A DNA stretch of 38,828 bases from Bdellovibrio sp. CG22_combo_CG10-13_8_21_14_all_39_27 (GTDB lineage Bacteria > Bdellovibrionota > Bacteriovoracia > Bacteriovoracales > Bacteriovoracaceae), in the NCBI GenBank assembly GCA_002786715.1, contig PCTW01000043.1, positions 217,235-256,062 of the forward strand. The letters are read 5' to 3'. A program made the translations under genes and the position numbers. The notes beneath the pieces are model-generated. The model searched no databases. It saw nothing but the letters and a program-made list of their open reading frames with translations, and was not told where the DNA came from. Within the stretch, counting starts at the first letter, position 1. Each line of letters begins with the position of its first letter. Below, piece by piece: positions 3,962 to 25,498 of this stretch.

Positions 3962-4471
3962 GTGGCAAAAAAGAAAATGATTCAAAAGAAAAGGCCCGGA
4001 CGGGGAAGAAGGCCTAATGTTGTTGAGGGACTCAGGGAAAATCCTGAAAGGGATACAAATATTGAAATCTTTATGCAGCTAATGATTGCTGAATATCTGG
4101 TCGGTAAGGAGGGAGAAGTTCTCAGTAACGATGAAAAGGCAAAGAGACGAAAAATTCTGGCCAAGCATCTTGGCCGTACAGAGCAAACACTTAAAAATAT
4201 GTATCTCTATGGCCAGGGCAGTCTTCAACAATTCTTCAAAGCGGCTGAGTTCATCTTGAAAATTAATCAAGAAGAGGTTATCAAATTTCTCAGAGCCTAT
4301 CCCTATATCATGAACAAACTCGATACGCTGAGTGAGTCCAAGAAAAAATTATACTATAACATGGAACAAATGACCGAAGAAGAACTCGCCTTGACCAACG
4401 ACCTTATCGAATTTGGACTTCAAAGGAATAAAGTCATGCGAGAGGGGAAAAAAGACCTTAACATCAAGTAA
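3962..4471 (+). CDS. HTH-type DNA-binding regulator
   Basis: The 169-residue protein begins with a very basic tail (KKKMIQKKRPGRGRRP), which suggests DNA contact. Residues about 60-100 (RRKILAKHLGRTEQTLKNMY) fit a helix-turn-helix of the Xre/Cro style: a first helix, a GRT turn and a recognition helix. The rest is helical and charged. The GTG start is the longest choice; an ATG at codon 6 is the alternative, and no strong ribosome site decides. It is divergent from the operon at 3748 and preceded by operator-like repeats, so autoregulation is likely. Its 3' end overlaps the convergent kinase gene by eight bases. It is not a clear member of a named family. Confidence 0.65.
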   Translation: MAKKKMIQKKRPGRGRRPNVVEGLRENPERDTNIEIFMQLMIAEYLVGKEGEVLSNDEKAKRRKILAKHLGRTEQTLKNMYLYGQGSLQQFFKAAEFILKINQEEVIKFLRAYPYIMNKLDTLSESKKKLYYNMEQMTEEELALTNDLIEFGLQRNKVMREGKKDLNIK

Positions 4472-6038
4472 AACTTTCCTCTCTTCCCAGATACTCAATC
4501 AACCCCTTGGGGAAAATTTTGACATTGGCATTAAGCGCCTTTGTTTGAACTAAAAGATCGTCATAATAATTGGTCAACAAGATCGACTTTGATTCAAGGT
4601 TAAAGTCTTGAATCAAATCTATTCCAGTTCTTGAATTATCGCCCAGATCATAATCGAATACAAAAATGGGGGAAATCAACTCCTTCTGATTTTTGTCGTA
4701 CCATGCTTCAAACTCTTCAGGAGTTTGATAAAAATATTTTTTTATGCTGTTATTGTTTTTCTCCAACGAATCTTTGACAAGTGAATGTATGACCGGACGA
4801 TCATCCGTAAGGATAAACTCCTTGATATTTTCTAAACTCAATTTCCCACTAAACCATTTGGGAACCTTCTCCTTGAGAAGAGATATTCTCACCGTTGTTC
4901 CAATGTCAACTTTGGAAATTATTGCAACTTTCCCGCCCCACTCTTCCACCTTTTCCATGGCAAAACTAATCCCAAGCCCATGCCCACCTTCTCGAAAAGA
5001 CACACCCCGTTTACCGATCAGACTCAATTGCTCTGGTCTAATTCCATGACCCTGATCTTTAACTTCAATTATATTTCCCTCATTTTCTTGAGACAGGATA
5101 ACTCTTATCTCAGCACCATTTTCGCTGGCCTTTGAGGCATTATCAACAATGTTTCCCAAAATGCGTTTTAACATACTTTCATTAACATTGGAAAAAGCAG
5201 TAAGAGCATCTTTCACAATCTCAAAAGACACTCGCTGTTCTTTCCTAAACAATTTAAAGTTTTCTTTCTCAATAATTTCTTTAACCGTTGCCGCCAGACA
5301 AACTGACGCTGTTTTTCCCCGGCTGAATTGATCCCGCTTTTCTTTTAGGTCATCAAGGATTGATGCCATATCGTCACATGCACTTTTAATTTTCTGACGT
5401 TCATCATGAACCACATTATTATTATTTTCTGCCAGAGCATACAAAAGTTGCATTGGCTGATTAAGATCGTGCCATACTTGGCTTACGGTTTCCTTGATTC
5501 CTTTATTTTTTTCTTCAAGTAAGTCGCGCTCAAAGCTCTTCTTGATAAGGGTTTTGTATTTATACATAACGGGCAGAAGGAACATGATGCCAATTACACA
5601 AAAAATCAGCACGGCCTTGCCCGCGCTAGCATGGGTGTAGGCATAGGTGATTGTTCCAGCGCGTTGTTTTTGGTTTTCATCAAAGAAAATATCCACCGAA
5701 ATATTGGTCGTTGTTAGCCTCGATAATATCCCACGATCTTCCTTGAAATAATCTGGCCCAAGGCTCGGGGGGAGAACGAAAACCCGGTTTCCTTCAAAGT
5801 CATAATAGCCAATGGCCTCAAAGCTCCCCAATTTGGCGTTGGACAACGAATAGATGGCCTCCCTGTATTGATGGGACTTGAGCATTCCCTCGACTACCTT
5901 GGAGACATTAAAAGCGCTTTCTTGTTTGATGCTGTAGACATAGTACAGTCCCAAAATCGAAGTAATAACAAACAGACCGAGGCAAACAATGACCGAAAGA
6001 GAAATAAAATGTCGGGTAAGCTTCTTTTGATTTTTCAT
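4464..6038 (-). CDS. Hybrid sensor histidine kinase with C-terminal receiver
   Basis: The 524-residue inner-membrane kinase has TM1 at about 12-36, a periplasmic sensor of about 100 residues, and TM2 at about 141-160. The H-box is WHDLNQPM with H190, in the NtrB/DctB-like HDLNQP style often paired with sigma54 activators. The N-box is NIVDNA (N296, N300), G1 is DQGHG at about 328-332, and G2 is GGHGLG at about 351-356. A receiver-like domain follows at about 405-515, with DD at 412-413, a candidate phosphoacceptor at D462 or D464 (FDYDLGD) and K511. It is last in the five-gene operon, three bases after the YcaO gene. It probably phosphorylates the sigma54 regulator encoded first in the same operon, with the peptide-binding protein as a possible ligand receptor. 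Confidence 0.88.
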   Translation of the reverse strand: MKNQKKLTRHFISLSVIVCLGLFVITSILGLYYVYSIKQESAFNVSKVVEGMLKSHQYREAIYSLSNAKLGSFEAIGYYDFEGNRVFVLPPSLGPDYFKEDRGILSRLTTTNISVDIFFDENQKQRAGTITYAYTHASAGKAVLIFCVIGIMFLLPVMYKYKTLIKKSFERDLLEEKNKGIKETVSQVWHDLNQPMQLLYALAENNNNVVHDERQKIKSACDDMASILDDLKEKRDQFSRGKTASVCLAATVKEIIEKENFKLFRKEQRVSFEIVKDALTAFSNVNESMLKRILGNIVDNASKASENGAEIRVILSQENEGNIIEVKDQGHGIRPEQLSLIGKRGVSFREGGHGLGISFAMEKVEEWGGKVAIISKVDIGTTVRISLLKEKVPKWFSGKLSLENIKEFILTDDRPVIHSLVKDSLEKNNNSIKKYFYQTPEEFEAWYDKNQKELISPIFVFDYDLGDNSRTGIDLIQDFNLESKSILLTNYYDDLLVQTKALNANVKIFPKGLIEYLGREESFT

Positions 6039-6041
6039 ACT

Positions 6042-7007
6042 CTATCCAATTGGGTGCGGTGCTATGGGTAACATGCCAAGAGACACCTCTCTTCCAGCAA
6101 AAGCACTCAACCTCTCAAGATTGATGTTTTGCTTTTGATTTTGTCCATAATACATATTTTGTAACCTCACAGACGTGGCCCTTGCCACATAAAGAGGAAT
6201 ATTATCAAAGAGAGGTAGAGGTGCTTTTAAAGTTTGAATCTCAAACTCATGCTCTTCCATTTTTACGGAAGGACCAAAATCAACTTTGCCTATATTTAAT
6301 TCAAAGAGCTTATATGAAAAATGGACTCTTTTGTGGTCCAGGCCCTTTGCTGAATTCAACTCATAAAGTTCGTTTGGAGAGAGCGGAAGCAAGTCCAGGT
6401 TGCCATTCAAATGGGCCACGACATTAATCATGCATTCAAGAATAGCACTTTCAATAGAATGAACTGAACTTTCATCACAACCAAATCCGCACAAAGTTCC
6501 AAAATGCTCTCCTCCATCAGCATGACAAATGGCCACATGGTAATTATCGCTTATGGAATGGGCCCATCCAAAATTTAAAGTAATTCCGTCTTCTTTTAAG
6601 CGTGAAGACAATTCTTCAAATTCATTGGGTATTAAAAATTTTTCATGACTGTGAAAAGGATTCTTGGTTAAATAGTGACAAAGTATAGCATCCCTCTCAA
6701 TGAGTTCCTTTTTTGCATTGGCCACTGCTTGTGTCTTGCGTACGTGAGTCGCCACGCCGTTACTGTTTAACTTGTTGCCAAAGCAATAAATTCTCTCAAC
6801 CAATTCGGAAAAAGACTTATAAAAAGCAGTCTCTTCATTTTTATCCGTACCTCTCCCTACAAAAGTCCGTCTAAAAGCTTTTCCCGTAACGCGAAAGTCG
6901 TGGTATTCGGGAAGCCAGTCATTAACCCAATTAAGTCTCTCAACTTGAAGATCAAGAGACTTTGAATGGGCTAATATCCATTTGTTTAATTCTTTGTAAT
7001 CGTCCAT
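6042..7007 (-). CDS. YcaO-family ATP-dependent amide-activating enzyme
   Basis: The 321-residue protein carries the hallmarks of a YcaO domain: GRGTDKNEETAFYKSFSELV with ER at about 51-72, an NGVAT segment at 83-87 followed by KELIERDA at 100-107, and FGCDESSVHSIESAILEC with conserved acids E186 and E191. These acidic residues bind Mg-ATP in known YcaO proteins. The C-terminus is LPIAPHPIG, a proline-rich tail like the PxPxP end of azoline-forming YcaOs. Known members activate backbone amides to form azolines, thioamides or amidines in peptides, or assist RimO. No ThiF/Ocin-like partner, TfuA or dehydrogenase gene is visible nearby. It overlaps the peptide-binding gene by 22 bases, so translation is coupled; no clear ribosome site is seen. 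The substrate is unknown. Confidence 0.8.
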   Translation of the reverse strand: MDDYKELNKWILAHSKSLDLQVERLNWVNDWLPEYHDFRVTGKAFRRTFVGRGTDKNEETAFYKSFSELVERIYCFGNKLNSNGVATHVRKTQAVANAKKELIERDAILCHYLTKNPFHSHEKFLIPNEFEELSSRLKEDGITLNFGWAHSISDNYHVAICHADGGEHFGTLCGFGCDESSVHSIESAILECMINVVAHLNGNLDLLPLSPNELYELNSAKGLDHKRVHFSYKLFELNIGKVDFGPSVKMEEHEFEIQTLKAPLPLFDNIPLYVARATSVRLQNMYYGQNQKQNINLERLSAFAGREVSLGMLPIAPHPIG

Positions 7008-8554
7008 ATCGGGTTATTCGCAAAAATTTGTGGAAGATGACTCTTCCAAGGTTTTCTTAATAGTGCAATATATGGCGAAGATGCCAAAGGATAGATGATT
7101 CCATCCATCAATGATTTAAAGTGCAATTTTTGAAGCATATCAAGGCGGGCCGATTTTTCAATGATCGACATATATTTGGCAATCCATTGCTGGCGCTCTA
7201 CTTTGCTCATTCCAAAGACTCCGGCATTGATCGAATAGGTAATGAGAGAAATATCCTCATTAAATGTAATGTCCGGCCCTCCAATAAAGGCGTGAGGCAT
7301 TTCTTCTAATGAACTATAATTTGTAAGGGCCGGAATTTTATTGCTTTCATAAATTTCAATTCCAGGTAGCGCCTTTTCAAGAGGTTTTTGATAATTTTCA
7401 ATGGAGCCAACGCGAAGAAGGGCCAGCTTAAGCTTTTCTCCTCGAATATCCGTTTTCATATTCTTGATTTTTTGCTCTACAGTTTCTTTTTGATCCTCTG
7501 AAAGCTGCCCATCTCCAAATGGAGGTAAAAACTGTTTTCTATCTTGATAGCCCGGTTGGGAGAGAAAATATGACGAAAGGGCGTCTTTTATGGCCATCCC
7601 ATATGCTAATCTTTCATCTGAGCTAAATTCTTTAAGACCTCTTTCTGTAAAGAAAACGGCAAATGTCCTAATGTCCATTGTTGTATGCAAAGATGCATCA
7701 TTGACTTCTTTTGAAAGATTAATGATCTTCTCGGGGTTTAGCTTGTCGATTGTTGTTATATGATCGACCTTCCCTTCCTTGTACAAATCAATCGAAGACT
7801 TATGAGTTCCGATGCCACTAGGGATAAACTCGACTTCTTGGGGAAGTGCATCACTATAGTGATAGTGGTTGGGATTCACTCGAAGAAGTATCTTTCCATC
7901 TTCACTTGAAGAATCAACATAATAAGGCCCGGAAGTATTTCTATAATCAATAATGGCCAAAGTCTTTGGATCAACCGAGGTTTTAGGGATTACCGCAAAA
8001 TCAATGGCAGTCAAAATATGAGTTAAAAAAGGTTTTTTCTCTCCTGGCCTCAAAATAAGAGTGTATTTATCTTTCACCTCAATACCATCACAGGGAGACT
8101 CAATCGTTTCCAATTCTGAATCTGGACAAATAATGTCCTTGAAGTTGCCATGAGTATTGCTTGAATTGACGAGTAACCTTTTTAAAGAAAATTCGGCATC
8201 AAATGCGGTGATTTCATATCCATCTATAGTTTTAAGCCCTTTTCTAATATGAAGATAGTATTCGCTGGTTTTTTCGTCCCATTGAAATTTTTCGGCGACA
8301 CCGCCAATAGGCTGGCCATTGGCATTGGACAGTTCAACCAATGGACTATAAATATTTTCAAGAAAAATATATTCCGGTCCAAGGTGAATGCGAGTGGGCT
8401 CATAATGAGAAGCCGGTTTATCGTAGGGAAATGCAACTCTTAACTTCATATCTTTTTTGTCCTTTTGGGATACTTGAATCTTAATGGCGATGTATCCTCC
8501 AATTAATAAAATGGTTACGAATAATGACAGGGAAAGCTTGTTCTTTAAAAACAA
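6986..8554 (-). CDS. Membrane-anchored solute-binding protein, family 5 (OppA/DppA-like)
   Basis: The 522-residue protein has one N-terminal hydrophobic segment (about 8-25) without a clear cleavage site or lipobox, so it is probably tethered in the periplasm. The next region follows the SBP_bac_5 pattern: YIFLENIYSPLVEL, GGVAEKFQWDEKTSEYYLHI, RKGLKTIDGYEITAFDAEFS. This family binds oligopeptides or small solutes for ABC importers or sensors. No ABC permease or ATPase is nearby, so a sensory role with the kinase of the same operon is more likely than transport (inference). The start is TTG with a GGGGGGA ribosome site located inside the end of the upstream gene, so it is coupled to that gene. 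Confidence 0.82.
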   Translation of the reverse strand: MFLKNKLSLSLFVTILLIGGYIAIKIQVSQKDKKDMKLRVAFPYDKPASHYEPTRIHLGPEYIFLENIYSPLVELSNANGQPIGGVAEKFQWDEKTSEYYLHIRKGLKTIDGYEITAFDAEFSLKRLLVNSSNTHGNFKDIICPDSELETIESPCDGIEVKDKYTLILRPGEKKPFLTHILTAIDFAVIPKTSVDPKTLAIIDYRNTSGPYYVDSSSEDGKILLRVNPNHYHYSDALPQEVEFIPSGIGTHKSSIDLYKEGKVDHITTIDKLNPEKIINLSKEVNDASLHTTMDIRTFAVFFTERGLKEFSSDERLAYGMAIKDALSSYFLSQPGYQDRKQFLPPFGDGQLSEDQKETVEQKIKNMKTDIRGEKLKLALLRVGSIENYQKPLEKALPGIEIYESNKIPALTNYSSLEEMPHAFIGGPDITFNEDISLITYSINAGVFGMSKVERQQWIAKYMSIIEKSARLDMLQKLHFKSLMDGIIYPLASSPYIALLRKPWKSHLPQIFANNPIWTITKN

Positions 8555-9060
8555 ATTGTCCCCCCTCGTGAAACGACATCACGAATATTGCCTCGTCTTT
8601 CAAGTTCACGGACAATCGAGTCATTCAAATCCAATTGCACATTATCGCTTCTTTCCAATTCTTCTTTATCAATCTCTACAATTCCAGTCCGAAGAAGCTC
8701 ACCAAGAATTTTCGATTTAACTTTATAAGAAATTTCGGGGCTATTCTTGTCAACCATTGAAACATGGTCTTTCAAAGTAAGGAGGGCCTTCTCCAATTCC
8801 TCCCCCTTTTTCCCATCTTCTTTATCCAAAGGCTTTATTTGACTAGCTGTCACCAGATTGGCTACAGCCTTTTCAATTTGTCCTCGTAGTTCTTTGTTGG
8901 ATAGCTCTGTTACTTGAAGACAGTTTAATGATAGAAGAGACTTGTCTCCCAATACATTGATCTTGCAATCTGGTGTGGCCCTAACAAGCTCATTTGCCTG
9001 AGCATAATTGATGTTGAGTGCCGAAGATAAAATCGTAAGTGTTAAAATTTTCTTTTTCAT
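8545..9060 (-). CDS. Small secreted protein ending in GGTICF
   Basis: The 171-residue product has a Sec signal peptide (basic start, hydrophobic core, cleavage near NYA or AQA at about residues 20-22). The mature part is helical and charged and holds cysteines near positions 32 and 48. The extreme C-terminus is VVSRGGTICF, rich in Ser, Thr and Cys. I do not recognise a family. It lies between the sigma54 regulator and the peptide-binding protein and is translationally coupled to the latter. Two guesses fit the context: a periplasmic partner of the sensor, or a substrate of the YcaO enzyme with a C-terminal modified segment. Against the second, most YcaO precursor peptides are shorter and lack a Sec signal. 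GGGGA lies upstream of the ATG. Confidence 0.7.
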   Translation of the reverse strand: MKKKILTLTILSSALNINYAQANELVRATPDCKINVLGDKSLLSLNCLQVTELSNKELRGQIEKAVANLVTASQIKPLDKEDGKKGEELEKALLTLKDHVSMVDKNSPEISYKVKSKILGELLRTGIVEIDKEELERSDNVQLDLNDSIVRELERRGNIRDVVSRGGTICF

Positions 9061-9072
9061 ATTGTTCCCCTA

Positions 9073-10539
9073 TTAAATTCTTAAGCTTGAAAAATTATCC
9101 ATTAAAGTTTTGAGTAAATTGTTTCTTTCCTCGGGGCCATAATCAAATATTCCAAGCGATTTCATCCGTGAGTTGAGAGTAGTTCTCTTAACTCTCAAGT
9201 CGATAGCCGCTTGCTTGATATTATGCCCCTTGGTTTTTAAAGTGGTGAGAATCAGTCGTTTTACCTGCTCGCGTTGTAATCTCTCCAAAGTTTCCAAATT
9301 CAAATTAATGATGGCATCACTGATGGAATTGGACTCCAAAATATCGTCTGGAAGGTGTTTTTTCCTGATGATTTTTTCTTCTACTTGCACATACAACCTT
9401 TCAACAAGATTTTCCAACTCGCGAACATTTCCCGGCCAACTATGACCTTTTAGGGCCCTGATGGTAGATGATGAGAAGTCCTTTTGCATCTTGAACTTGT
9501 TTTCCGTTATTTCTTTGAAGTGCATGAGAAGAGGTTCAATATCCTCGGTTCTCTCCCTTAGTGGTAGAATTTCCAAATCCAGCGTAGAAATGCGAAAGTA
9601 AAGATCAGGTAGAAAGTCGGGATCGTTCCCCCGGCACATTTCTTTAAGCTTAGGCTTTCCGGCACAGACTAAGCGGAAATCAACTCCAAACTCCTTGTTA
9701 CTACCAACACGCTTTATTTTCTTTTCTTGAACCGCACGTAAAAGTTTTGCCTGAGCATCCCTACCAAGATGGTGAATTTCATCAAGAAAAACCGTTCCCC
9801 CATGGGCCGCTTCAAAGACTCCCGCCTTTTGCTTAATGGCACCAGTGAAAGCGCCTTTTTCATGGCCAAATAATTCCGACTCCATCAAAGAAGAGTCTCC
9901 CTTAAAAGAAGAACAGTTTACTGCAATAAATTGGCCCCGCTTGGCCCTTCTTGAATTATTGTGGACGGCCTTGGCAACAAGCTCCTTGCCGATACCTGTC
10001 TCGCCCAAAATCAATACATCGGAATCCACCTCAGCGTAGCGCAATACGCTCTTTGCAATTCGCTGGAAGTCTGCGGAGACGCCGATCATGTTAATGAGCT
10101 TTGCATAGTCCTTATTATCTATTCGTTGTCCGAGAATAGTTTCTTGAATATGTTTTGAAATAGCTGATTTGATATTAGCTACGACTTTTTGTTTTGTAAT
10201 CGGCTTATATAAAACCTTGTCGGTATCAACCTCAAGCCATCTCTTGTAAGCATCCTCCGAAGTATCAGCGGAGACAATCACAACCACTAAGTCTTCATTG
10301 ACTTTCTTGAGCTGACGGATCAACTCACTCCCATCGGAAAATAGACCGTCTGCCGACATTAGGTTGTAGTCAATAAAGGCAATGACATACTCACCTGGAG
10401 ATGTGAGAAATTGTTGATAGGCTTTGGAGCCAGAGGAATAATACTCAATAAAGTATTTTTCATCTTTTAAAAATTCTCTATAGGAATCCAAGACCTTTTC
10501 ATGGTCATCAACTATCAAAATTTTTTGTCGCTTATTCAT
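9073..10539 (-). CDS. Sigma54-dependent response regulator (NtrC family)
   Basis: The 488-residue activator has three parts. The receiver (about 6-120) has DD at 11-12, the phosphoacceptor D57 (AFIDYNL) and K112. The AAA+ domain has Walker A GETGIGKE, the sigma54-contacting GAFTGA loop (GHEKGAFTGAIKQ), Walker B VFLDEI and an R-finger region. A Fis-type HTH at the C-terminus (GHNIKQAAIDLRVKRTTLNS) binds enhancer DNA. I chose the ATG at 10539 because GGGTGG lies upstream and a sigma54 promoter lies at 10582-10597. A longer frame to 10647 would place the promoter inside the gene. It is first in the operon and probably autoregulated through the TCGTCAC elements. Confidence 0.93.
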   Translation of the reverse strand: MNKRQKILIVDDHEKVLDSYREFLKDEKYFIEYYSSGSKAYQQFLTSPGEYVIAFIDYNLMSADGLFSDGSELIRQLKKVNEDLVVVIVSADTSEDAYKRWLEVDTDKVLYKPITKQKVVANIKSAISKHIQETILGQRIDNKDYAKLINMIGVSADFQRIAKSVLRYAEVDSDVLILGETGIGKELVAKAVHNNSRRAKRGQFIAVNCSSFKGDSSLMESELFGHEKGAFTGAIKQKAGVFEAAHGGTVFLDEIHHLGRDAQAKLLRAVQEKKIKRVGSNKEFGVDFRLVCAGKPKLKEMCRGNDPDFLPDLYFRISTLDLEILPLRERTEDIEPLLMHFKEITENKFKMQKDFSSSTIRALKGHSWPGNVRELENLVERLYVQVEEKIIRKKHLPDDILESNSISDAIINLNLETLERLQREQVKRLILTTLKTKGHNIKQAAIDLRVKRTTLNSRMKSLGIFDYGPEERNNLLKTLMDNFSSLRI

Positions 10540-10581
10540 CGTTTCCACCCTTTGGGTAATATATTTACACAACCCCCTTGA

Positions 10582-10597
10582 GCAACCATCGTGCCAA
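10582..10597 (-). promoter_or_regulatory. Sigma54 (-24/-12) promoter of the sensory operon
   Basis: Read on the minus strand, the sequence is TTGGCACGATGGTTGC, a match to the RpoN consensus (TTGGCACG, four bases, TTGC) with exact GG-to-GC spacing. The expected transcript start is near 10571, about 32 bases before the ATG at 10539. Since the first gene is itself a sigma54 activator, this suggests positive autoregulation. Confidence 0.85.
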
Positions 10598-10628
10598 CTA
10601 TAAAAACCGCTTATTTTCAAGGCATTAC

Positions 10629-10690
10629 AAGTGACGCAATCTAGCATATTTGTTTATTTGGGGCAAAACAGTGCCGATACTTCGTCACTT
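10629..10690. promoter_or_regulatory. Candidate enhancer pair upstream of the sigma54 promoter
   Basis: AAGTGACG (10629-10636) and CGTCACTT (10683-10690) are a perfect 8-base inverted pair, about 58-65 and 112-119 bases upstream of the predicted start. This is the usual placing for NtrC-type enhancers. The same core recurs at 10772-10778 and 11339-11374. Binding by the Fis-type HTH of the neighbouring activator is inferred. Confidence 0.55.
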
Positions 10691-10770
10691 TTTTACAGGG
10701 TTTCTCATTTTCTCTTGTAAAACTTTTGGAATATCAATCAGTTGCCCTCTAAAAAAGAAAATGACTTAAA

Positions 10771-10779
10771 CTCGTCACG
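10771..10779 (+). promoter_or_regulatory. Single TCGTCAC element
   Basis: CTCGTCACG lies in the gap between the sensory operon promoter and the end of the ParB-like gene, about 200 bases upstream of the predicted operon start. It shares the TCGTCAC core with four other copies. The gap 10598-10846 otherwise shows no gene. Confidence 0.4.
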
Positions 10780-10846
10780 TATTGAGGGAAAATGGGTGTG
10801 ATCTACACCTAACTGTTGGAAGTTATGGACAATTTTCTAATGACGT

Positions 10847-11278
10847 TTATTCGCCACACAGCTTTGAATTCCAGTAATCAACGAAAGAAAAATACGCTTG
10901 CTGCGAGGTTAAGAAACCTATGTGTTGGATAACTGAAAGCTTATAAGCAGGAAGTTTTTCAATACCGATCCTGATAGCCTTTTCTATTCGATGGTGCCCA
11001 TCAATGACGTTATATCTGCTTGGAGCAATCTCGGCCAAAATAATTGGAACAGAAAGATTGGCGGTCTTGATTGTGGACTCATCCAAATGATCTGAAGAGT
11101 AATTGGGATAAAGTTTTACTTCTACATTCTCAAAGATGATCTTGCTCTTTTGATCTTCTATGAAGGCAATCATTTTTGTGATGTTGAACTCAAAAATCCC
11201 ATTTGGGAAAAATTCATCACCGTAATCTATTAAAATGGGTTCAAAGTCATTTTGTCTTACTAGCATTTTGGATTTCAC
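10847..11278 (-). CDS. ParB-like nuclease-domain protein
   Basis: The 143-residue protein has the ParB N-terminal/sulfiredoxin-like fold signature in its second half: VPIILAEIAPSRYNVIDGHH followed by RIEKAIRIGIEKLPAY. In this family the DGHHR or GERR box binds nucleotide or DNA phosphate. The usual ParB central HTH and dimer domain are absent, so it is not a partition ParB. More likely it is a small ParB-domain regulator or nuclease, as found on mobile elements. The start is GTG with AGGAGG nine bases upstream. It is transcribed leftward from a region of 370 non-coding bases that also serves the rightward regulator at 11649. Function is uncertain. Confidence 0.7.
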   Translation of the reverse strand: MKSKMLVRQNDFEPILIDYGDEFFPNGIFEFNITKMIAFIEDQKSKIIFENVEVKLYPNYSSDHLDESTIKTANLSVPIILAEIAPSRYNVIDGHHRIEKAIRIGIEKLPAYKLSVIQHIGFLTSQQAYFSFVDYWNSKLCGE

Positions 11279-11338
11279 TGATTTTTTCCTCCTCTCGTTA
11301 TTTCTTATTCAATCACAGATTATCACCGCAAGAATGAA

Positions 11339-11374
11339 GTGACGAGATCAAGCCAAATCAAAAAATCTCGTCAC
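11339..11374. promoter_or_regulatory. 10-base inverted repeat GTGACGAGAT/ATCTCGTCAC (candidate enhancer)
   Basis: Perfect arms at 11339-11348 and 11365-11374 are separated by 16 bases. They contain the TCGTCAC core also found upstream of the sensory operon. They lie about 220-250 bases before the predicted start of the sigma54-type promoter at 11567. A run like TATTTTTA follows, so a weak terminator is possible but less likely. Confidence 0.6.
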
Positions 11375-11566
11375 TATTTTTAAGTTCCTAAAATTTATAA
11401 TGAATCACCCAATTTAAACAGTAAACAGTGGCGATCAGTCGTCAAAAGCTGTTTTAATATTGCCAGCACAAGACAGAGAATATGTCTCGCCATTTTATTT
11501 CTAATGTATTGTCTTTATTCGTTTTATTTCCTCTCAAAATGATCTGGATGGCCTCATGCCAACTTT
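11375..11566. other. Non-coding control region
   Basis: No gene is seen here. It holds an imperfect inverted pair, TAAACAG (11422-11428) with CTGTTTTA (11449-11456), enclosing a partial GTCGTCA match. Together with 11279-11338 it makes a 370-base gap between the ParB-like gene and the sigma-like regulator. The gap probably serves for regulation and could also hold a transfer origin, though nothing marks a nick site. Confidence 0.35.
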
Positions 11567-11580
11567 GGCTTTTCTATTGC
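11567..11580 (+). promoter_or_regulatory. Sigma54-type promoter candidate for the 11649 regulator
   Basis: TTGGCTTTTCTATTGCT carries the GG at 11567-11568 and the GC at 11579-11580 with the exact -24/-12 spacing, and it retains TTGGC and TTGC. It lacks the ACG of the best consensus. The start would be near 11592, leaving about 57 untranslated bases. Upstream TCGTCAC elements support activator control. Confidence 0.55.
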
Positions 11581-11648
11581 TCTATTGAGTTCACACTTTG
11601 GAAGTTTCTTTCAAAACAATAACAAACAGCTTTTCAAAAGGGGGAAGC

Positions 11649-12308
11649 ATGAACATTGAAATCGAACAAACTCAAACATCCGATGAACTTGGTGAGAGAA
11701 AGTCATCACCAGAAAAAACACACCCTCTCACTAGTAAAAGGAAATCCGTTAATAGCAAGTTAACGGGCTCTTCAAAACGTGATCAAAAAGTCTTCACCCG
11801 TCCATGGCTCAATGAAGATGGAACTTTAAAAAGTGATGATGAAATCAAAGAACTCGGGAGAAACTGGTCGGCACAAACTTGGGATCAATATCTAAAGGCC
11901 GACATTGGAACAATTGAAGACGAAAGTTTGATGTTTTATTTCGACATGGATACCGAGGCCATGCTTGAACGTGCCCAGGTATCTGAACTTCTTGAAGAAC
12001 ATGATATTTATGAAGAAATTGAACCAGCACTCTTACTCGCTATGCTCGATCTTTCTGCTATGGAAAGATCAATAATCAAGGGAGCATATTGGCAAGGGCT
12101 ATGCGACCAGGACTTGGCAATAAAACTGTCCAGCACTTATGGTTCGATCCGTGTTCTAAAGTCACGAGCAATCAATAAAATCAGTAAAATTCTTCCAAGT
12201 AAAAAGTTTCGCAAGAAGCTTGCGACCCTCAAACGAAAGGGAAAGCTTGAAAGCATCATAAATGAACAAAAACAATGGCTTTACTCCGGTTCGTTAACAT
12301 TGAGTTAG
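11649..12308 (+). CDS. Sigma70 region 4-like regulator
   Basis: The 219-residue protein has a basic, Ser/Lys-rich N-terminal 55 residues, an acidic middle, and a C-terminal segment resembling sigma region 4: LSAMERSIIKGAYWQGLCDQ, then DLAIKLSSTYGSIRVLKSRA with RAINKISKIL. It lacks the region 2 core-binding and -10 motifs, so it is not a full sigma factor. I chose the ATG at 11649 because AAAAGGGGGAAG lies just before it; the longer frame from 11598 has no such site. It is preceded by the sigma54-type promoter and followed by the regulator genes and the transfer operon, so it is probably an intermediate regulator of transfer. Confidence 0.7.
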   Translation: MNIEIEQTQTSDELGERKSSPEKTHPLTSKRKSVNSKLTGSSKRDQKVFTRPWLNEDGTLKSDDEIKELGRNWSAQTWDQYLKADIGTIEDESLMFYFDMDTEAMLERAQVSELLEEHDIYEEIEPALLLAMLDLSAMERSIIKGAYWQGLCDQDLAIKLSSTYGSIRVLKSRAINKISKILPSKKFRKKLATLKRKGKLESIINEQKQWLYSGSLTLS

Positions 12309-12382: not shown

Positions 12383-12988
12383 ATGATGAAGCATCTCGTT
12401 ACAAGTGACGTATTTGACGATCTCTATTTACATACCCACAGGGTCGCCAACAATACCAAAAAAGAATTGTTGATTGTCGGCAATCAATTCAAGGACACCC
12501 GTAGTCTAACGTTATCGGAGCTAAAACTTTACGTTGAAAGAGATATTTTCCTGGCCGTTAAAGACGGCAAACTTCCATATCTCAGTTTCTCGATTGATGT
12601 TGATGAGGAATCCAACGGATTTCATGGCAATTTGGGAATCACAATTGATTACATGAACGGGCAAGTGCTCAATCATGATTTCATCAATCAGACCATCCGT
12701 CTTAATTCCACCAAAGTCCTGGAAGATGATTTTTTTGAGGACAATCACGGAAACTTGTTTTCTGAACTTGCTCTTGGCGTTCAACACAAGATCGCTCAAA
12801 TGCTCGCTGCCTATAACTGTGAAGAGTATCGCCTTATTGATGGACGGGTGATCTTTTTTAGTGAGCGCTTTGATTATTGTGTGCGTTTTGAGCATCGTTA
12901 TTTAAAAAATCTTCTTCGATCTGTTCCCATGATCGAAGAGAACCAACAATTTTTTCTCGACTACATTGTTCCAGGAGTATGTGCATGA
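12383..12988 (+). CDS. Hypothetical protein coupled to sigma-like regulator
   Basis: The 201-residue protein is acidic and soluble, without signal peptide or membrane segment. I do not recognise a family. AGGAGG lies immediately upstream of two adjacent ATG codons (12383 and 12386); spacing favours the second slightly. Its TGA overlaps the start of the next gene as ATGA, so the two proteins are made together. Position between two region-4-like regulators suggests a regulatory partner, perhaps an anti-sigma-like or co-regulator, but this is only context. Confidence 0.6.
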   Translation: MMKHLVTSDVFDDLYLHTHRVANNTKKELLIVGNQFKDTRSLTLSELKLYVERDIFLAVKDGKLPYLSFSIDVDEESNGFHGNLGITIDYMNGQVLNHDFINQTIRLNSTKVLEDDFFEDNHGNLFSELALGVQHKIAQMLAAYNCEEYRLIDGRVIFFSERFDYCVRFEHRYLKNLLRSVPMIEENQQFFLDYIVPGVCA

Positions 12989-13326
12989 TTGAAACCATTC
13001 TAAGCCCCGAATGTCTAAAAAGGTTATCTGACCGCCAAGTAAGCAATGAGTATCTAAAAACGCTCAACCAATGTGACGAGCCTACACTTCTTGAAACCTT
13101 TGTTGATAAGCTTCCTCCACGGGAGAGGAAAGTTATCAGGCTCAAGTTCTGGCACGACATGGATTTTGATGAAATCTCACAGCAAACCGGGATTCGCCGA
13201 AATTGTGTAGAAAAAGTGCTGTCCAGAGGAATCTCAATGCTTAGGCAGAAGATGATTGAAGAACTAGTGGATCTTGAACCCGAGTGGGAAATCGAAGAAA
13301 AGCCCTATCAAATGGCCGGCAATTAA
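12985..13326 (+). CDS. Small sigma70 region 4-like DNA-binding protein
   Basis: The product has 113 residues from the ATG at 12985, chosen because AGGAG lies seven bases upstream and the codon overlaps the previous stop. The core LPPRERKVIRLKFWHDMDFD then EISQQTGIRRNCVEKVLSRG is a classic sigma70 region 4 / LuxR-like helix-turn-helix, followed by a short basic helix and an acidic tail. There is no region 2, so it is probably a transcription regulator rather than a complete sigma factor. It lies directly before the transfer operon, whose first gene starts 57 bases later, and is the most likely local activator of it. Confidence 0.75.
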   Translation: MIETILSPECLKRLSDRQVSNEYLKTLNQCDEPTLLETFVDKLPPRERKVIRLKFWHDMDFDEISQQTGIRRNCVEKVLSRGISMLRQKMIEELVDLEPEWEIEEKPYQMAGN

Positions 13327-13382
13327 AAAACCGTTATCCAATAATAAAAATTAAAACAAAATCAATTTTAAGGGAGCAAACA

Positions 13383-14381
13383 TTGAAAGGTTGGTTCGTT
13401 CTTATTCTGCTAGGTACTTCGACACTTGCGCACGCTTTTCCAAGTGTGTGCAGTGTCGTCAACTCGCCAAGTTTTCGTAGTTGCTTGGGACTCACAAGCA
13501 ATATCTCCATGTGTGGATGGCCTGTACCAAGGCCGTGCATACACTTTTCCTACTATGTGCCGCAATACTATGTTGAGGTGGTGAGTAACCCCAAGGAATC
13601 GTTTTTCACAGGGCTTCCAGGCACGGCAGCACAACTAGCGACAACAAAAGAGGTCGTTCCCTTTGGTGCCGAAAATGATGAAGGAGCCTATTCCTTTCAC
13701 GCTCACACTATCAATGTACCTTTTACTATGTGGGGATTCTCAGGGATGCCATGTGGTGGAGCGCAGTGGGATAATATGTGCTTCACTTCGATGTCGGAGC
13801 ATTTGGGTAGCAATTGGAAGACGGGACTTGCCGACTCTCTTCAACCGGCATGGCTTGCCTGGAGTGCCGCTCCGAAGGCATGCCTAATTAAAGGTGCTGT
13901 GACTTCCACAACGGGCGGTTCTATTCCAACCGGATACCCAAATCACTCTGCCATGTGTTCAGCCGATAGAAGCTGGATGAAAAAGTATCCACCAAGTAAT
14001 CAGCCCGTATGCAATGGCTGGGGGATCGTTTTTCCTCGCTATGGCACAGTTACCAGTTCAGACCAAAATACTGCCTCATTGGTGATTGCTTCAAGAATGA
14101 GAAGTCTTGGTTCGGAGGTATTTCAATCGGTTCCAACTTTTCATGATGAAAAGTGGCAAATGATTTACCCGCAATCGAGTTCTTGTTTTCGGGAGGGGCA
14201 AAACGTGGCCCTTTTGCGTGCCAAACGGGTCAGTGAACTTGGACGCCTTTGGAGCGGAAAACTTAAAAATTATCTGTATGTAGTGTGGAAACGAGTCGGA
14301 TGCACCCGCGATCTTCCTTATTATGCATCCACTCACGCCTGGCCATCCATTATTCAGGCTGCCTGTAGAGGTACAAAATGA
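13383..14381 (+). CDS. traU: TraU-like conjugative transfer protein
   Basis: This is a 332-residue secreted protein. The signal peptide covers about residues 1-18 (LLGTSTLAHA). Cysteine-rich segments follow, and the C-terminal third follows the TraU pattern: an ASLVIASRMRSLG helix, a KWQMIYPQSSSCFREGQNV motif and a final VVWKRVGC. F-type TraU is a periplasmic protein of about 330 residues needed for DNA transfer, with disulphides made by the TrbB/DsbC system. I chose the TTG at 13383 because GGGAG lies eight bases upstream; a frame from 13284 would overlap the previous gene. It overlaps the next gene by four bases (ATGA). Confidence 0.8.
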   Translation: MKGWFVLILLGTSTLAHAFPSVCSVVNSPSFRSCLGLTSNISMCGWPVPRPCIHFSYYVPQYYVEVVSNPKESFFTGLPGTAAQLATTKEVVPFGAENDEGAYSFHAHTINVPFTMWGFSGMPCGGAQWDNMCFTSMSEHLGSNWKTGLADSLQPAWLAWSAAPKACLIKGAVTSTTGGSIPTGYPNHSAMCSADRSWMKKYPPSNQPVCNGWGIVFPRYGTVTSSDQNTASLVIASRMRSLGSEVFQSVPTFHDEKWQMIYPQSSSCFREGQNVALLRAKRVSELGRLWSGKLKNYLYVVWKRVGCTRDLPYYASTHAWPSIIQAACRGTK

Positions 14382-15988
14382 AATTCGGTAAATTTTTAAT
14401 TCAAGAAGGCCTGATAAGTATTGATGCTCTTGATGATACCCTGGCGGTGCAAAAGCGACTAAAAAAGCAAAAAATTGGAAGACTCCTGATTGAACTTGGG
14501 TATTTACAAAAAGAATCTCTCAATCTGGCACTAACCAGGTATTTGAATCCAAAACTAAATAAAACGGCGCTGGAACTTCAAAGCATCGTTGCCAAAACCT
14601 ATCCCTCAAGCACAACCATGATGCTTGCTAAAAGGTATAAGGCAATTGTCTTTAAAGAGGATCACAAAAGCGTTCAATACTTGAGAGTTGATCTTGTTGA
14701 CGATGAGCTGCTACTTGAAACCGAAGGGCGTACTCAAAAAGAGTCATGCTGCCATCTTGTTTCAAAAGAAATATTTGATTATCTCCACCAATCTGCAAGA
14801 GTCGAAGGTCCCGCCCATTCAAAAATTGTGGTGACACAAACTCTTTCAGATGATGACAAGCTTGCTGGAATCTCCCCTTATGCGAAGCTCTTTAAAGAAG
14901 CACTTTCCGAGGCCAAGAAGCGCTCAGTCAGTGATATTCATATCGAGCCGACAGACAAGGGGGTGACGATTCGCTTTCGCCTTTTCGGAAATCTTTACGC
15001 TTACAAGTCGCTTACGAAAGATCACCGTGAGGGACTTATCACGACCGTTAAAAGCATCGTCAATATGGATTTAGCAATCGTGGGTAGGCCCCAGGATTCC
15101 AGAGCGTCTTTTAAAACTTTTAAAGTCGATGTACGGGCAAGCTCGCTTCCCAAACTTTATGGCGAAAAGTTGGTTTTGCGATTGCTTGACCAAGAACGTG
15201 ATTTTCGACTTGAGGCCTCAGGATTGAATCAAGACTCCCTTCATGCCTTGAGGGCCGCTTCCAGGAAAAGAGATGGGCTTGTACTTATTTCCGGGCCAAC
15301 CGGATCGGGAAAAACAACCACTCTCTATTCGCTATTGAACGAGCTGCCCCGTGACCGACTCAATATCTCCACTTTGGAAAATCCGGTGGAGTATGAACTA
15401 CCTGGTATCAATCAGGTGAACATTAGTGAAAATGGTATTCTCACTTTTGAGTCATCCCTTCGGGCACTTATGCGCCAAGACCCCGATGTTATTTTAGTCG
15501 GAGAAATCAGGGACCACGAAACCGCAAGTCTTGCTTTTAAAGCGGCATCCACAGGGCATTTGGTCTTTTCCACTGTTCATGCCAATGGTGCCAAAGAAGT
15601 TGTGGAAAGGCTTGTAAATCTTGGGATTGATACCTTTACCATAAAAAGTAATCTTTGCCTTAGCGCCGCTCAACGCCTGGTTCCACTACTTTGCAATAAT
15701 TGCGCTCTTTCTTTGAGCGACGAAGACATAAGAGAAATTAAAGGCCATCTTGATGGACGTGATCTTTCCCCCTTGAGGAAAATTAACACCGAAGGTTGTT
15801 CACATTGCCAAAGTGGCATTAAAGATCGCAAGGCCATTCTTGAATATATGGACAAAGGCGAAATCAATCATTTTCTTGGTAATTCCATCCATGGGGGTAT
15901 CATTCCCAAGCACTCACTTAAAAGTGCAGCTCTCGTGTTGGCGGAAGAAGGCAGAATAGATGTTTTTGAAGTTTTGTCTTTCACCTGA
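14378..15988 (+). CDS. GspE/PilB-type secretion ATPase
   Basis: The 536-residue ATPase begins with an MshEN-like N-terminal domain (GKFLIQEGLISIDALDDTL, then IGRLLIELGYLQKESLNLAL), which binds c-di-GMP in some relatives. The central part has the ATP-binding region, Walker A GPTGSGKTTT at about 306-315, the Asp box region, Walker B DPDVILVGEIRD and the His box STGHLVFSTVHAN. A tetracysteine zinc site (CNNC, then CSHC) lies near 445-475. This is the type II secretion / type IV pilus assembly ATPase family, cousin of VirB11. F-type transfer systems normally lack such an ATPase. Its overlap with traU and its place in the transfer operon suggest it powers pilus or secretion steps there. Confidence 0.9.
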   Translation: MKFGKFLIQEGLISIDALDDTLAVQKRLKKQKIGRLLIELGYLQKESLNLALTRYLNPKLNKTALELQSIVAKTYPSSTTMMLAKRYKAIVFKEDHKSVQYLRVDLVDDELLLETEGRTQKESCCHLVSKEIFDYLHQSARVEGPAHSKIVVTQTLSDDDKLAGISPYAKLFKEALSEAKKRSVSDIHIEPTDKGVTIRFRLFGNLYAYKSLTKDHREGLITTVKSIVNMDLAIVGRPQDSRASFKTFKVDVRASSLPKLYGEKLVLRLLDQERDFRLEASGLNQDSLHALRAASRKRDGLVLISGPTGSGKTTTLYSLLNELPRDRLNISTLENPVEYELPGINQVNISENGILTFESSLRALMRQDPDVILVGEIRDHETASLAFKAASTGHLVFSTVHANGAKEVVERLVNLGIDTFTIKSNLCLSAAQRLVPLLCNNCALSLSDEDIREIKGHLDGRDLSPLRKINTEGCSHCQSGIKDRKAILEYMDKGEINHFLGNSIHGGIIPKHSLKSAALVLAEEGRIDVFEVLSFT

Positions 15989-16005
15989 TTCTTTAAGAGG
16001 TTTTT

Positions 16006-16773
16006 ATGAGATTTTTATTTATAATTATGATGATATTTCTGTATCTGAATTCTGGCCATGTGTATGCCTTTGATTTTTTTGATTCGGACATTGATTATTG
16101 GAATGAATCAAAAAATATTCAACAGTCAACTCCCAATGCCATCAAGGGAACTTCAATAAAAGATGAGAACAAATCCGAAGAAAAGAAAAAATCTTCTTTT
16201 GACTGGAAAAAACAACTCAACCCTAAGAATGATGAATTTTTCAAAGAGGGTGATTATACGCCACCCGCCGCCTTTATGGAACTGGCGAGAAACCCCAGCG
16301 ATAAAAATATTAAAAATTGGTTTTCTCTGGTCGAGAAGAAAAATCTGCTCTCCCAAAGACTGGGCCAAAGAATTGCAGAATATGTCCGCAAGAATAAAAA
16401 ACTCAAACCAGAAGAAAAAATAAACCTTAAAACTACTGTAAGTGAGCTTCCTCAAAGTAATGACGATTATAAGCGCTTTCGTTTTCGTATGTACTTTGAA
16501 TCTTCTTGTCCTCATTGCAAGCGTATGTTTCAGACCATGAAGGAGCTGCAAGAGATGGGATATTTTGTGGAACTCAAACAAATTGATGATAACCAAAAGG
16601 TTCGTCGTATGCTGCCTTTTTCGGTTACTCGCGCCTCCAAGGAAGAGCTTAAAAATAAAAAAATCAGCTCATGGCCGGTTCTTTTCGTGGGCGATCTCAA
16701 GAAAAAAGTAGTTTACCGGTTAAACGGCTATCGCTCAACCACAGACGTTATCTCGGCCATTCAATCACGCTGA
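16006..16773 (+). CDS. traF: Thioredoxin-like TraF/TrbB-type periplasmic protein
   Basis: The 255-residue protein has a signal peptide (residues 1-22, ending near HVYA). A Lys/Glu-rich linker is followed by a thioredoxin-like C-terminal domain with the CPHC redox motif in MYFESSCPHCKRM. A cis-proline region (SSWPVLFVGD) follows. F TraF has a thioredoxin fold usually without the CxxC, whereas TrbB and DsbC have it; this one keeps CxxC, so it may act on disulphides of the Cys-rich TraU and TraH-like proteins. AAGAGG lies before the ATG. The gene symbol is a family-level guess. Confidence 0.7.
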   Translation: MRFLFIIMMIFLYLNSGHVYAFDFFDSDIDYWNESKNIQQSTPNAIKGTSIKDENKSEEKKKSSFDWKKQLNPKNDEFFKEGDYTPPAAFMELARNPSDKNIKNWFSLVEKKNLLSQRLGQRIAEYVRKNKKLKPEEKINLKTTVSELPQSNDDYKRFRFRMYFESSCPHCKRMFQTMKELQEMGYFVELKQIDDNQKVRRMLPFSVTRASKEELKNKKISSWPVLFVGDLKKKVVYRLNGYRSTTDVISAIQSR

Positions 16774-16826
16774 GTTTAAGCATTTCTTAAATATTTTAAA
16801 ATCAACCTTTGCAAGGAGGAGGAATC

Positions 16827-17279
16827 ATGTTTGATCCCCATACCAACTATTATCTCGTTAAAGAACGCATGAAAGAGCTGCACAATGAAGTGGGTCGGGG
16901 CGGCCCTAATCCCAAGATTCCTATTTGGCCTTTACTTTTGATTATCGCCATTCTTTTGACGTGGTTTTATGGAGCTGATGCTTTTGCCGCAATTCCAAGA
17001 CTTCCAGGCTCAGATCAAAGCGACAAACTTCAAGCGGCGGGCACACTCCTTCGCATCATCGACAGTGCTCTCTTTTCGTGGGGAGCGCGTATTTTTGCCG
17101 GTCTTCTCATCTTAAACGCCGGAGTCTCACTTAAAAATCAGGCCTTCGGTCTGGCCTTTATCAGTGTGATAGGTGCCATTATTGTGGGAACGGCCCCATT
17201 GTGGGTGAAAAACATTTTTGACATGGGTGGCGGCACACTCTTTTCCATGCTCGCTTCTTTCGGAGGATTCTATGCATAG
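16827..17279 (+). CDS. traA: Candidate conjugative pilin precursor (TraA/VirB2-like)
   Basis: The 150-residue precursor has a long leader. A hydrophobic segment covers about 33-50 and ends in ADAFA, with predicted cleavage after A54. The mature part of about 96 residues has two more hydrophobic segments (about 80-105 and 112-130), the topology of conjugative pilins. F TraA likewise has a leader of about 51 residues and a small two-helix mature pilin. It lies directly before traL, as traA does in F. The ATG at 16827 is chosen because GGAGGAGG lies just upstream. Its stop overlaps the traL start by eight bases. No sequence identity to TraA is claimed; the call rests on size, topology and position. 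Confidence 0.6.
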   Translation: MFDPHTNYYLVKERMKELHNEVGRGGPNPKIPIWPLLLIIAILLTWFYGADAFAAIPRLPGSDQSDKLQAAGTLLRIIDSALFSWGARIFAGLLILNAGVSLKNQAFGLAFISVIGAIIVGTAPLWVKNIFDMGGGTLFSMLASFGGFYA

Positions 17280-17583
17280 TTATGAATCCCTCAAAGAAAA
17301 TTATGGCACCAAAGTCAGCCAAACCATCGACAGTCCCATTTTGGTCTTTGATTACTTTGAATTGACTGAGGTTTTTGCCGCTCTTTTTGTCATGCTGATC
17401 TTTGGAGTGATTTTCTACTCTTGGGGGCTTATGTTTTTGTCTTTGGGAATTATCCTTGGTGTAGTTCCACAAGTCAGAAGAAAAAACCTAAAAGGAATCT
17501 TCTTTCATAGGCCCTACAGAAAACTTCAAATGTCTCTGCCAGGCCTTATCAATCCGAAAGGGCCCAAAAGATACTCGGACTAA
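17272..17583 (+). CDS. traL: TraL-like transfer protein
   Basis: The 103-residue product starts at an ATG preceded by GGAGG and overlaps the end of the pilin gene. It has two adjacent hydrophobic segments (roughly residues 35-50 and 52-65), then a basic C-terminus (RRKNLKG, RPYRKLQM). TraL is a small membrane protein of the F-type pilus assembly complex, equivalent to VirB3, of about 90-100 residues. Its place between the pilin and TraE is the F order and strengthens the call. Confidence 0.75.
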   Translation: MHSYESLKENYGTKVSQTIDSPILVFDYFELTEVFAALFVMLIFGVIFYSWGLMFLSLGIILGVVPQVRRKNLKGIFFHRPYRKLQMSLPGLINPKGPKRYSD

Positions 17584-17606
17584 TAATTAAAGCTTATGGA
17601 GAACCA

Positions 17607-18380
17607 ATGAATAATAAACTCAAATCTCTTAAAGAATTTTTCAAATCGTCTATGATTGGGCCAAAGGAAAAGGGCATGGAAAAAGGCCAGATTCAAACAC
17701 CACCTAATGGAACTTATGAAGGAGTAGACCTTCGCCTCTTGCCACGCTTTATTTCATATAAAGCATCTCTTCTAAAAGAGAAGATGACTTTAAAGACAGT
17801 GATGGCCATTCTTCTCATTCTCTTTTGCTTTCACTACTTCGGCACACGCTTTGAGGTAGCTTCCCTTCACAAAAAGCTGAGAGAAAAAGAGTATATCCTG
17901 GCACCAGGTGTTCTGGATTTTACCACCGCTTCTCCCCAAGCAGTGCCGGATTCCTATGTCAATGATGCAGTAACGGATTTTCTCTCCGATCTTGGCAATG
18001 TCAGTGCCAATAATATTGACGAGCAGTACAATATTCTCAAACGCTTTATGAGTGACAAACTCAAAGTGACATTTGAAATGGAAACCGGCGATTGGGTGGA
18101 GCAAGTCAAAAGCGAGGGCATCTCCCAGATTCTTACTGTCATCGAAAAAGAAATCAAAACCGATGAAGAGGGCAACTATAGAGTGATTGCTACAGCAAGA
18201 GCAGATTTTTATGCCTCTGGGCAGTATTTAGGGCATGAAGATCAGGTGATTGAAATGGCCCTTCAACTCACATCTCCCAAAAAAGGCAAGCGCTGGTATT
18301 TGCAAATCACCTCACTGTCATTGTCAAAAGCTGACGCTTTTAAGGTCAAAACTGACCTCTCAAAAGGTACTGCCAAATAA
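17607..18380 (+). CDS. traE: TraE-like (VirB8-type) transfer protein
   Basis: The 257-residue protein has a cytoplasmic N-terminus of about 65 residues, one transmembrane segment (about 68-85, MAILLILFCFHYFG) and a periplasmic domain with a late strand-rich pattern typical of TraE/VirB8. F TraE is about 188 residues; this one has a longer N-terminal tail. GGAGAA lies before the ATG. It lies between TraL and TraK, in the canonical order. Confidence 0.75.
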   Translation: MNNKLKSLKEFFKSSMIGPKEKGMEKGQIQTPPNGTYEGVDLRLLPRFISYKASLLKEKMTLKTVMAILLILFCFHYFGTRFEVASLHKKLREKEYILAPGVLDFTTASPQAVPDSYVNDAVTDFLSDLGNVSANNIDEQYNILKRFMSDKLKVTFEMETGDWVEQVKSEGISQILTVIEKEIKTDEEGNYRVIATARADFYASGQYLGHEDQVIEMALQLTSPKKGKRWYLQITSLSLSKADAFKVKTDLSKGTAK

Positions 18381-18445
18381 TCTTTTTCTCTATTTGTACA
18401 AACTTAAACTCATTCATCTTAAATCAATTAAAACAAGGAAATTCT

Positions 18446-19285: not shown

Positions 19286-19324
19286 TCCGCTTCTTTTTCC
19301 ATTTTAAAATTCAAGGAGTTCAAT

Positions 19325-20647: not shown

Positions 20648-20674
20648 CAACTTAAAAATTACCGGAGAATTAAT

Positions 20675-21064: not shown

Positions 21065-21123
21065 CCCTATTCATTCTTTTTTCTTTCCATTTTTTTCTCA
21101 ATTCTTAAAAAGGAGACACTCTC

Positions 21124-25467: not shown

Positions 25468-25498
25468 TTTCAACCTCTAATTTTTCAAGGGAGATTCA

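Follow-up and report, generated by a model that had tools for sequence, protein, structure and literature searches.

The window, as we call the whole 38,828-nucleotide stretch of Bdellovibrio sp. DNA that was analysed, carries a sensory operon and a set of conjugative transfer genes on opposite strands. Its main genes are as follows.

4464-6038, reverse strand: membrane hybrid histidine kinase (PF02518; HDLNQPMQ box and receiver-like C-terminal region read from the sequence)
6042-7007, reverse strand: predicted YcaO peptide-modifying enzyme (PF02624; E..ER and ELIER motifs; PHPIG C-terminus)
6986-8554, reverse strand: OppA-like periplasmic peptide-binding protein (SBP_bac_5, PF00496; OppA structures match at 5e-10)
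8545-9060, reverse strand: candidate secreted peptide precursor, 171 aa (tail SRGGTICF; last five codons at 8548-8562)
9073-10539, reverse strand: NtrC-type activator (receiver, sigma54-interacting AAA+ domain with GAFTGA, Fis-type HTH)
10847-11278, reverse strand: ParB-like small gene (weak TIGR00180 match), inside the operator array
11649-12308, forward strand: sig1, a sigma-region-4-like transfer regulator (TIGR02937 at 7e-6, below the cut-off)
12383-23688, forward strand: transfer genes of an F-type conjugation apparatus, assigned with Pfam

The activator is matched by PF00158 (3e-55), PF00072 (5e-15) and PF02954 (9e-4, below the gathering score). With the GAFTGA motif read in its sequence, a receiver and a Fis-type HTH, it has the domain make-up of an NtrC-type activator (bEBP). 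Behind it follow the 171-aa protein, the OppA-like protein, the YcaO enzyme and the membrane kinase, and this succession of precursor, receptor, enzyme and kinase recurs across the phylum. A YcaO of the module kind was found at E < 1e-15 in 65 of 369 genomes, part of which were inspected. There is no ABC permease gene in the sensory operon. The YcaO protein has a TIGR03604 domain match below the whole-protein cut-off and is matched by the MJ1094 and McbD structures; its YcaO-type Glu/Arg residues (E68, E71, R72, E101, E104 and R105) are invariant in 14 aligned sequences. Having precursor, receptor and response regulator in one unit, with its own predicted sigma54 promoter and sites, the operon is laid out as a pheromone or quorum system might be. 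A methyltransferase gene adjoins the module both in the window (1532-2755, reverse strand, fused behind a response-regulator receiver) and in contig C60 of the same genome (L098:612-1442), and possibly encodes a further peptide- or signal-modifying enzyme.

The transfer run comprises p201, sig2, TraU, a T2SSE-type ATPase, a TraF/TrbC-like protein, TraE, TraK, TrbI/TraB and TraC, and homologues of sig1 head tra operons. Inside the transfer region, genes for a BrnT-family toxin (23814-24350) and an Mrr-type restriction endonuclease (24556-25473) lie on the reverse strand. At 35705-36939 stands part of an IS4/5-family transposase, and behind it a C5-cytosine DNA methylase. Just left of the element, the gene for p355, a protein of unknown function, is duplicated (window 468-1535 and L101:15977-16972), the C-terminal halves of the copies being highly similar. 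Further genes left of the element (G000:C21:209000-215100; L101:9359-15038) encode a YMDD reverse transcriptase, a small adjacent product and a large, partly masked protein whose end is formylglycine/C-lectin-like; from its sequence, this locus looks like a diversity-generating retroelement. In another Bdellovibrio sp. contig (L017, that is G023:C2), a CRISPR locus adjoins the sensory module (L017:3482-9305), with cas1, cas4, at least 16 repeats and a gene for an 898-aa Cas12-like protein. Known Cas12 models recognise this protein only weakly, the best being Cas12e at 5e-14, which falls far short of the cut-off, and the locus possibly represents a new type V subtype.

The region between the activator gene and sig1 contains two predicted sigma54 promoters and five predicted operators.

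10581-10596, reverse strand: sigma54 promoter of the activator and sensory operon, TGGCACGATGGTTGCT, 12/12 against TGGCACG-N4-TTGCW
10672-10687: predicted operator A1, TGCCGA-tact-TCGTCA, 11/12, 91 bp from the activator promoter element
10762-10777: predicted operator A2, TGACTT-aaac-TCGTCA, 10/12, 181 bp from the activator promoter element
10841-10856: predicted operator A3, TGACGT-ttat-TCGCCA, 11/12, 260 bp from the activator promoter element
11340-11355: predicted operator T2, TGACGA-gatc-AAGCCA, 10/12, 226 bp from the sig1 promoter
11429-11444: predicted operator T1, TGGCGA-tcag-TCGTCA, 12/12, 137 bp from the sig1 promoter element
11566-11581, forward strand: sigma54 promoter of sig1 and probably the transfer operon, TGGCTTTTCTATTGCT, 9/12

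The promoter of the activator operon had been proposed in a sequence-only reading of this DNA, and it holds: the match is complete, the claimed 16-mer occurs once in the genome, and the activator start codon lies 42 bp downstream of the element. The same reading placed a sigma54 element upstream of sig1. Its position is conserved in three related loci, but taken alone a 9/12 match is unremarkable, as shuffled sequence gives 0.23 such matches per region. This promoter is convincing only because elements precede the same gene in G083 (10/12, TGGCACTGCTATTGCC aligning with TGGCTTTTCTATTGCT), in G027 (10/12, TGGCACAGCCATTGCC aligning likewise) and in contig C75 of the same genome (9/12). A further sigma54-like element lies within the TraE gene, at 17994, and was treated as chance. 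An rpoN gene is present in the genome, which together with the -24/-12 elements and the upstream palindromes supplies what a target promoter of an NtrC-type activator has. Judged by sequence comparison, both sigma54 promoters are real and conserved.

The site unit required more revision. Five copies of a TCGTCAC core had been claimed, some of them arranged as inverted pairs. Four exact copies are present in 10582-11592 (10682 and 10772 on the forward strand, 11339 on the reverse, 11368 on the forward), where the remainder of the window would predict 0.19 (Poisson P about 4e-5); the fifth, at 10631 on the reverse strand, reads CGTCAC only. Inverted pairs do exist (11338-11348 with 11365-11375, having 11-bp arms, and 10631 with 10682), but they are not what is conserved. 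Rather than being sites in themselves, the cores are half-sites of a 16-bp palindrome, TGRCGA-N4-TCGYCA, and it is this palindrome that relatives retain; the single core was dropped as the unit for that reason. Palindromes scoring at least 10/12 start at five positions in the window (10672, 10762, 10841, 11340 and 11429), and operator T2 is accompanied by an extra half-site, TCTCGTCAC, at 11366-11374. Dinucleotide shuffles of the region contained 0.07 palindromes on average and reached five in 0 of 2000 runs; the consensus was drawn by eye from the window before testing, so that this count is partly circular and the relatives provide the independent test.

Relatives were found by a contig search, which returned L017 with an activator 63% identical to that of the window, and by searching genomes of the family with a YcaO alignment, which located the same operon in G089, G083, G027 and C75. 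Six loci could thus be compared: the window, C75, G027, G083, G023/L017 and G089. Gene order in G083 equals that of the window from p355 through the transfer genes, and in G027 the sensory operon is divergent from sig1, a 141-aa gene, sig2, TraU and the remaining transfer run. Every related TGACGA-type locus has three to five palindromes, a count reached in 0 of 2000 shuffles. The palindrome nearest to the activator promoter element lies exactly 91 bp from it in all six loci, the second at 181-183 bp in all six, and the third at 259-261 bp in four and at 247 bp in two. The palindromes and the sigma54 element of the activator promoter are retained in five of five related TGACGA-type loci, the latter scoring 11-12/12 at the same relative place. 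On the transfer side, sites and sigma54 element are retained in all three related loci with an adjacent sig1 (C75, G027 and G083). Counterparts of T1 stand 137 bp (G083), 140 bp (G027) and 127 bp (C75) from the sig1 promoter, and the G083 counterpart of T2 stands at 226 bp, as in the window. Neither sig1 nor transfer genes were found near the modules of G023 and G089; weak sig1 homologues in G023 and G029 are without such palindromes. The ParB-like gene lies within the array in the window and in G083. It is missing from C75 and G027, so the two half-arrays may once have been one compact regulatory region.

The palindromes are largely confined to these modules. About one exact degenerate palindrome is expected per 4-Mb genome (an estimate from equal base odds). 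All three exact palindromes of G083 lie in its array, as do four of six in G027, the single one in G089 and one of three in G023; the window's own genome has five, one in the window and two in C75. Scattered palindromes in contigs C38, C83 and C93 were treated as chance, C38 and C83 having no related module genes nearby. Genome-wide, exact sites outside modules occur near background numbers only and reveal no wider regulon. Since exact palindromes are found mostly in module arrays, the regulon appears to be largely private to the module.

Other lineages use other operators. In C60 and in G016, G034, G087 and G225, half-sites are TTACGA, CTACAA or TATCAA with the same 4-bp gap; C60 is of the TTACGA type, and the window and C75 are of the TGACGA type. 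Two or three palindromes lie upstream of the activator's sigma54 element (10-11/12) in each of these five, and the lineage-specific palindrome recurs upstream of transfer genes or sig1.

C60, 9765: tra-side palindrome, with a 10/12 sigma54 element before a VirD4/TraD-like gene
G016, 12241 and 12296: tra-side palindromes, with a 10/12 sigma54 element before a VirD4/TraD-like gene
G034, 3843: tra-side palindrome, 11/12, with a sigma54 element at 3686
G087, 3981: sig1-side palindrome, before sig1
G225, 3190: sig1-side palindrome, before sig1

First-order Markov controls reached the observed score on the tra side in 0/1000 runs for C60, 1/1000 for G016, 4/1000 for G087 and 0/1000 for G225. The 11/12 site of G034 lies just outside the tested 1200 bp, inside which the best site is 10/12 (72/1000 Markov runs). 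No strict sigma54 element was found on the sig1 side of G087 and G225. Among distant modules with a neighbouring activator, no sigma54 element can be recognised in L193, L196, L211 and L138, and a relaxed rule is needed to see one in L212. The activator's recognition helix varies along with the operator (VKRTTLNSRM, L[AK]YTTY, LPYTTYI and MKRSTFIW). Promoters, sites, spacing, the sharing of sites by two operons and their covariation with the recognition helix can all be seen in the aligned loci. The recurrence of lineage-specific palindromes on the transfer side and their change with the recognition helix form the strongest evidence at hand for a reading of the palindromes by the activator's HTH, and for selection keeping the link to transfer. 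The proposal in the sequence-only reading that one activator controls both itself and transfer thus gains support from conserved, shared operators that vary with the recognition helix.

The sequence-only reading leaves out the peptide-signal features of the sensory operon. What the circuit senses is suggested by the gene directly upstream of the binding protein. Across relatives, the product of this ORF starts with a signal-like segment, retains a conserved helix that reads LNxSIVxxLExxG in the close group, and finishes in a short tail of variable sequence. For the window precursor, the structure model shows a helical body, with residues 160-171 disordered (pLDDT < 50) and a mean pLDDT of only 68. 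A Cys lies within the last 25 residues in 29 of 34 YcaO-type precursors, against a body rate of 0.8% and in rows that are not phylogenetically independent, often in the context [S/T/G]x[I/V]C. The remaining five are without a Cys in this stretch, that of L212 falling just outside it. In five modules an HExxH protein takes the place of YcaO, and the C60 representative passes the curated TIGR04267 cut-off (aKG-HExxH-type peptide beta-hydroxylase). Their precursors, again not independent rows, have a tail Cys in none of five cases and end near SF (DHSFA, DNSFA, SRHSFIR, AKASFISGN and GSHSFSM). An adjacent ORF with a conserved leader part and a variable C-terminal core of Cys, Ser and Thr is what a RiPP precursor presents, with the same non-independence of rows. 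Read most simply, these sequences describe a precursor whose tail would be modified by the enzyme encoded next to it and perceived through the adjacent receptor and kinase. In G027, the 141-aa gene after sig1 (L103:11166-11591) encodes an internal NGTVCI identical to the last six residues of the C75 precursor, which is either chance or a decoy or immunity motif. No E1-like/ocin-ThiF partner or TfuA was found among the annotated operon neighbours of YcaO in the window, and no peptidase or exporter was identified for the candidate precursor. For want of these canonical companions, we do not count the locus among classical LAP/TOMM clusters, although YcaO enzymes that act on their own are known.

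From these features we infer how the circuit might work, including binding, the direction of regulation, the phosphorelay, peptide modification and the role of the peptide as signal. The small secreted protein would supply the signal in the form of its C-terminal tail, altered by YcaO or, in sister systems, by the HExxH hydroxylase. Captured in the periplasm by the OppA-like protein, it would be reported to the kinase, which would phosphorylate the activator. The phosphorylated activator would then bind the 16-bp palindromes through its Fis-type HTH, presumably as a dimer, and loop to sigma54 polymerase, opening two divergent promoters, that of its own operon from sites 91, 181 and 260 bp away and that of the sig1-tra operon from sites 137 and 226 bp away. 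The output would be more peptide, receptor and activator, with the transfer genes switched on. With genes for kinase, binding protein, YcaO and candidate precursor in the activator's own operon, this would amount to a positive-feedback loop ending in conjugative transfer.

The input is the part of this scheme most exposed to another explanation. With the same wiring, the binding protein could sense prey or nutrient peptides from the environment, while the small protein and YcaO have other tasks, for example the one as an accessory in the periplasm and the other in maturing it. In favour of this are the organism's kinship with predatory bacteria, the general peptide binding of OppA-like proteins, the location of some modules away from transfer genes, and the failure of a pheromone peptidase or exporter to come to light. 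Such an origin of the signal is nevertheless rather unlikely, given short variable C-terminal tails whose composition tracks the type of enzyme and a fixed order of precursor, receptor, enzyme and kinase. A self-made peptide as the input of the circuit has somewhat better than even chances, the pheromone step being deduced from gene content and tails.

The wiring itself stands on firmer ground. Were the palindromes bound by another protein of the element, such as sig1 or the ParB-like product acting as a repressor or at a partition site, one could point to the way they flank these two genes and to the habit of ParB-type proteins of binding palindromes. The sites are kept, however, in G023 and G089, with neither gene nearby, and in C75 and G027, which lack the ParB-like gene; their type tracks the activator's recognition helix, and their distances to the sigma54 elements fit upstream activating sites; binding by another protein is accordingly quite improbable. 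We find it equally hard to credit that the activator controls its own operon only, with sig1 and tra on a different promoter and the sites common by proximity. Window sites and promoters do share one intergenic region, and the sig1 element scores just 9/12, yet in C60, G016 and G034 the tra operon lies several kb off and has its own palindrome beside a 10/12 sigma54 element. The repeats might also be intrinsic terminators or neutral repeats, since a T run follows site A1 in the window, G083 and G027; the terminator reading was rejected because most other copies have no T run, and fixed promoter spacing together with covariation with the activator makes either version extremely improbable. We consider it very probable, from the conservation of sites and promoters, that one NtrC-type activator drives its own operon and transfer. 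The combined reading, an activator loop acting on two sigma54 promoters and ending in conjugation, with a self-made peptide as its most likely input, is reasonably probable, and is rated so because its main claim is the wiring.

We speculate, at evenly balanced odds, that these modules represent a widespread Gram-negative mating-pheromone system, in which a modified peptide, a periplasmic receptor and kinase, sigma54 autoinduction and lineage-specific operators time conjugation. If this is so, mobile DNA in Gram-negative relatives of predatory bacteria would be timing its spread by a novel means, and variable peptide tails and operators would keep the circuits of different elements apart. The pairs of operator and helix amount to a natural collection of differing specificities between activator and site, and the precursor tails can serve as candidate signals for synthesis. 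Further, the window's own genome has three modules of two operator types (the window and C75, TGACGA; C60, TTACGA), so that cross-talk between elements is directly testable. To our knowledge, peptide-pheromone control of conjugation is known from Gram-positive plasmids. In the literature searched, we found no described equivalent of the present combination, nothing joining YcaO, pheromone and conjugative transfer, incidental mentions only of YcaO with Bdellovibrio, and nothing on conjugative transfer and quorum sensing in Bdellovibrionota.

By analogy, the regulatory logic appears closest to that of CTnDOT RteA/RteB, of LuxP/LuxQ/LuxO in its signalling layout, and of the enterococcal pheromone plasmids in its OppA-type protein. 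The Vibrio system, which includes LuxU, likewise connects a periplasmic binding protein and a hybrid kinase to a response regulator of the sigma54 type within a single pathway. LuxP binds the sugar-derived AI-2, whereas the window binding protein is OppA-like and shares its operon with a candidate precursor and a modifying enzyme. In the Gram-positive enterococcal plasmids with PrgZ, as proposed here, an OppA-type protein and a peptide tell the element when to conjugate; there, however, the peptide is imported and read by a cytoplasmic repressor, with no YcaO modification, no kinase and no sigma54. In the NtrC family, the upstream activating sites are palindromes that precede -24/-12 promoters by some 80-300 bp and are recognised by an HTH of the Fis type. 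The predicted operators resemble these in their placement and in the Fis-type HTH of the activator, and differ in having lineage-specific half-sites common to sensory and conjugation operons on mobile elements.

On the peptide side, LAP/TOMM and aKG-HExxH RiPPs (e.g. PMC12636437) also place a tailoring enzyme beside a short precursor with a variable C-terminal tail of Cys, Ser, Thr and Gly. The present modules depart from these in their signal-peptide precursor and in having receptor and kinase in the operon, with no E1-like partner or exporter found there. In CTnDOT, RteA, RteB and RteC are produced upon tetracycline exposure, and excision and transfer are under the control of rteC, itself activated by RteB (PMC1976400). 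A peptide precursor, a YcaO, an OppA-like receptor and a shared palindrome are features of the window system that the consulted part of that source does not describe for CTnDOT (PMC1976400). The likeness is one of working rather than of membership: as with RteAB, an element-borne two-component system would stand upstream of a second transfer regulator (PMC1976400).
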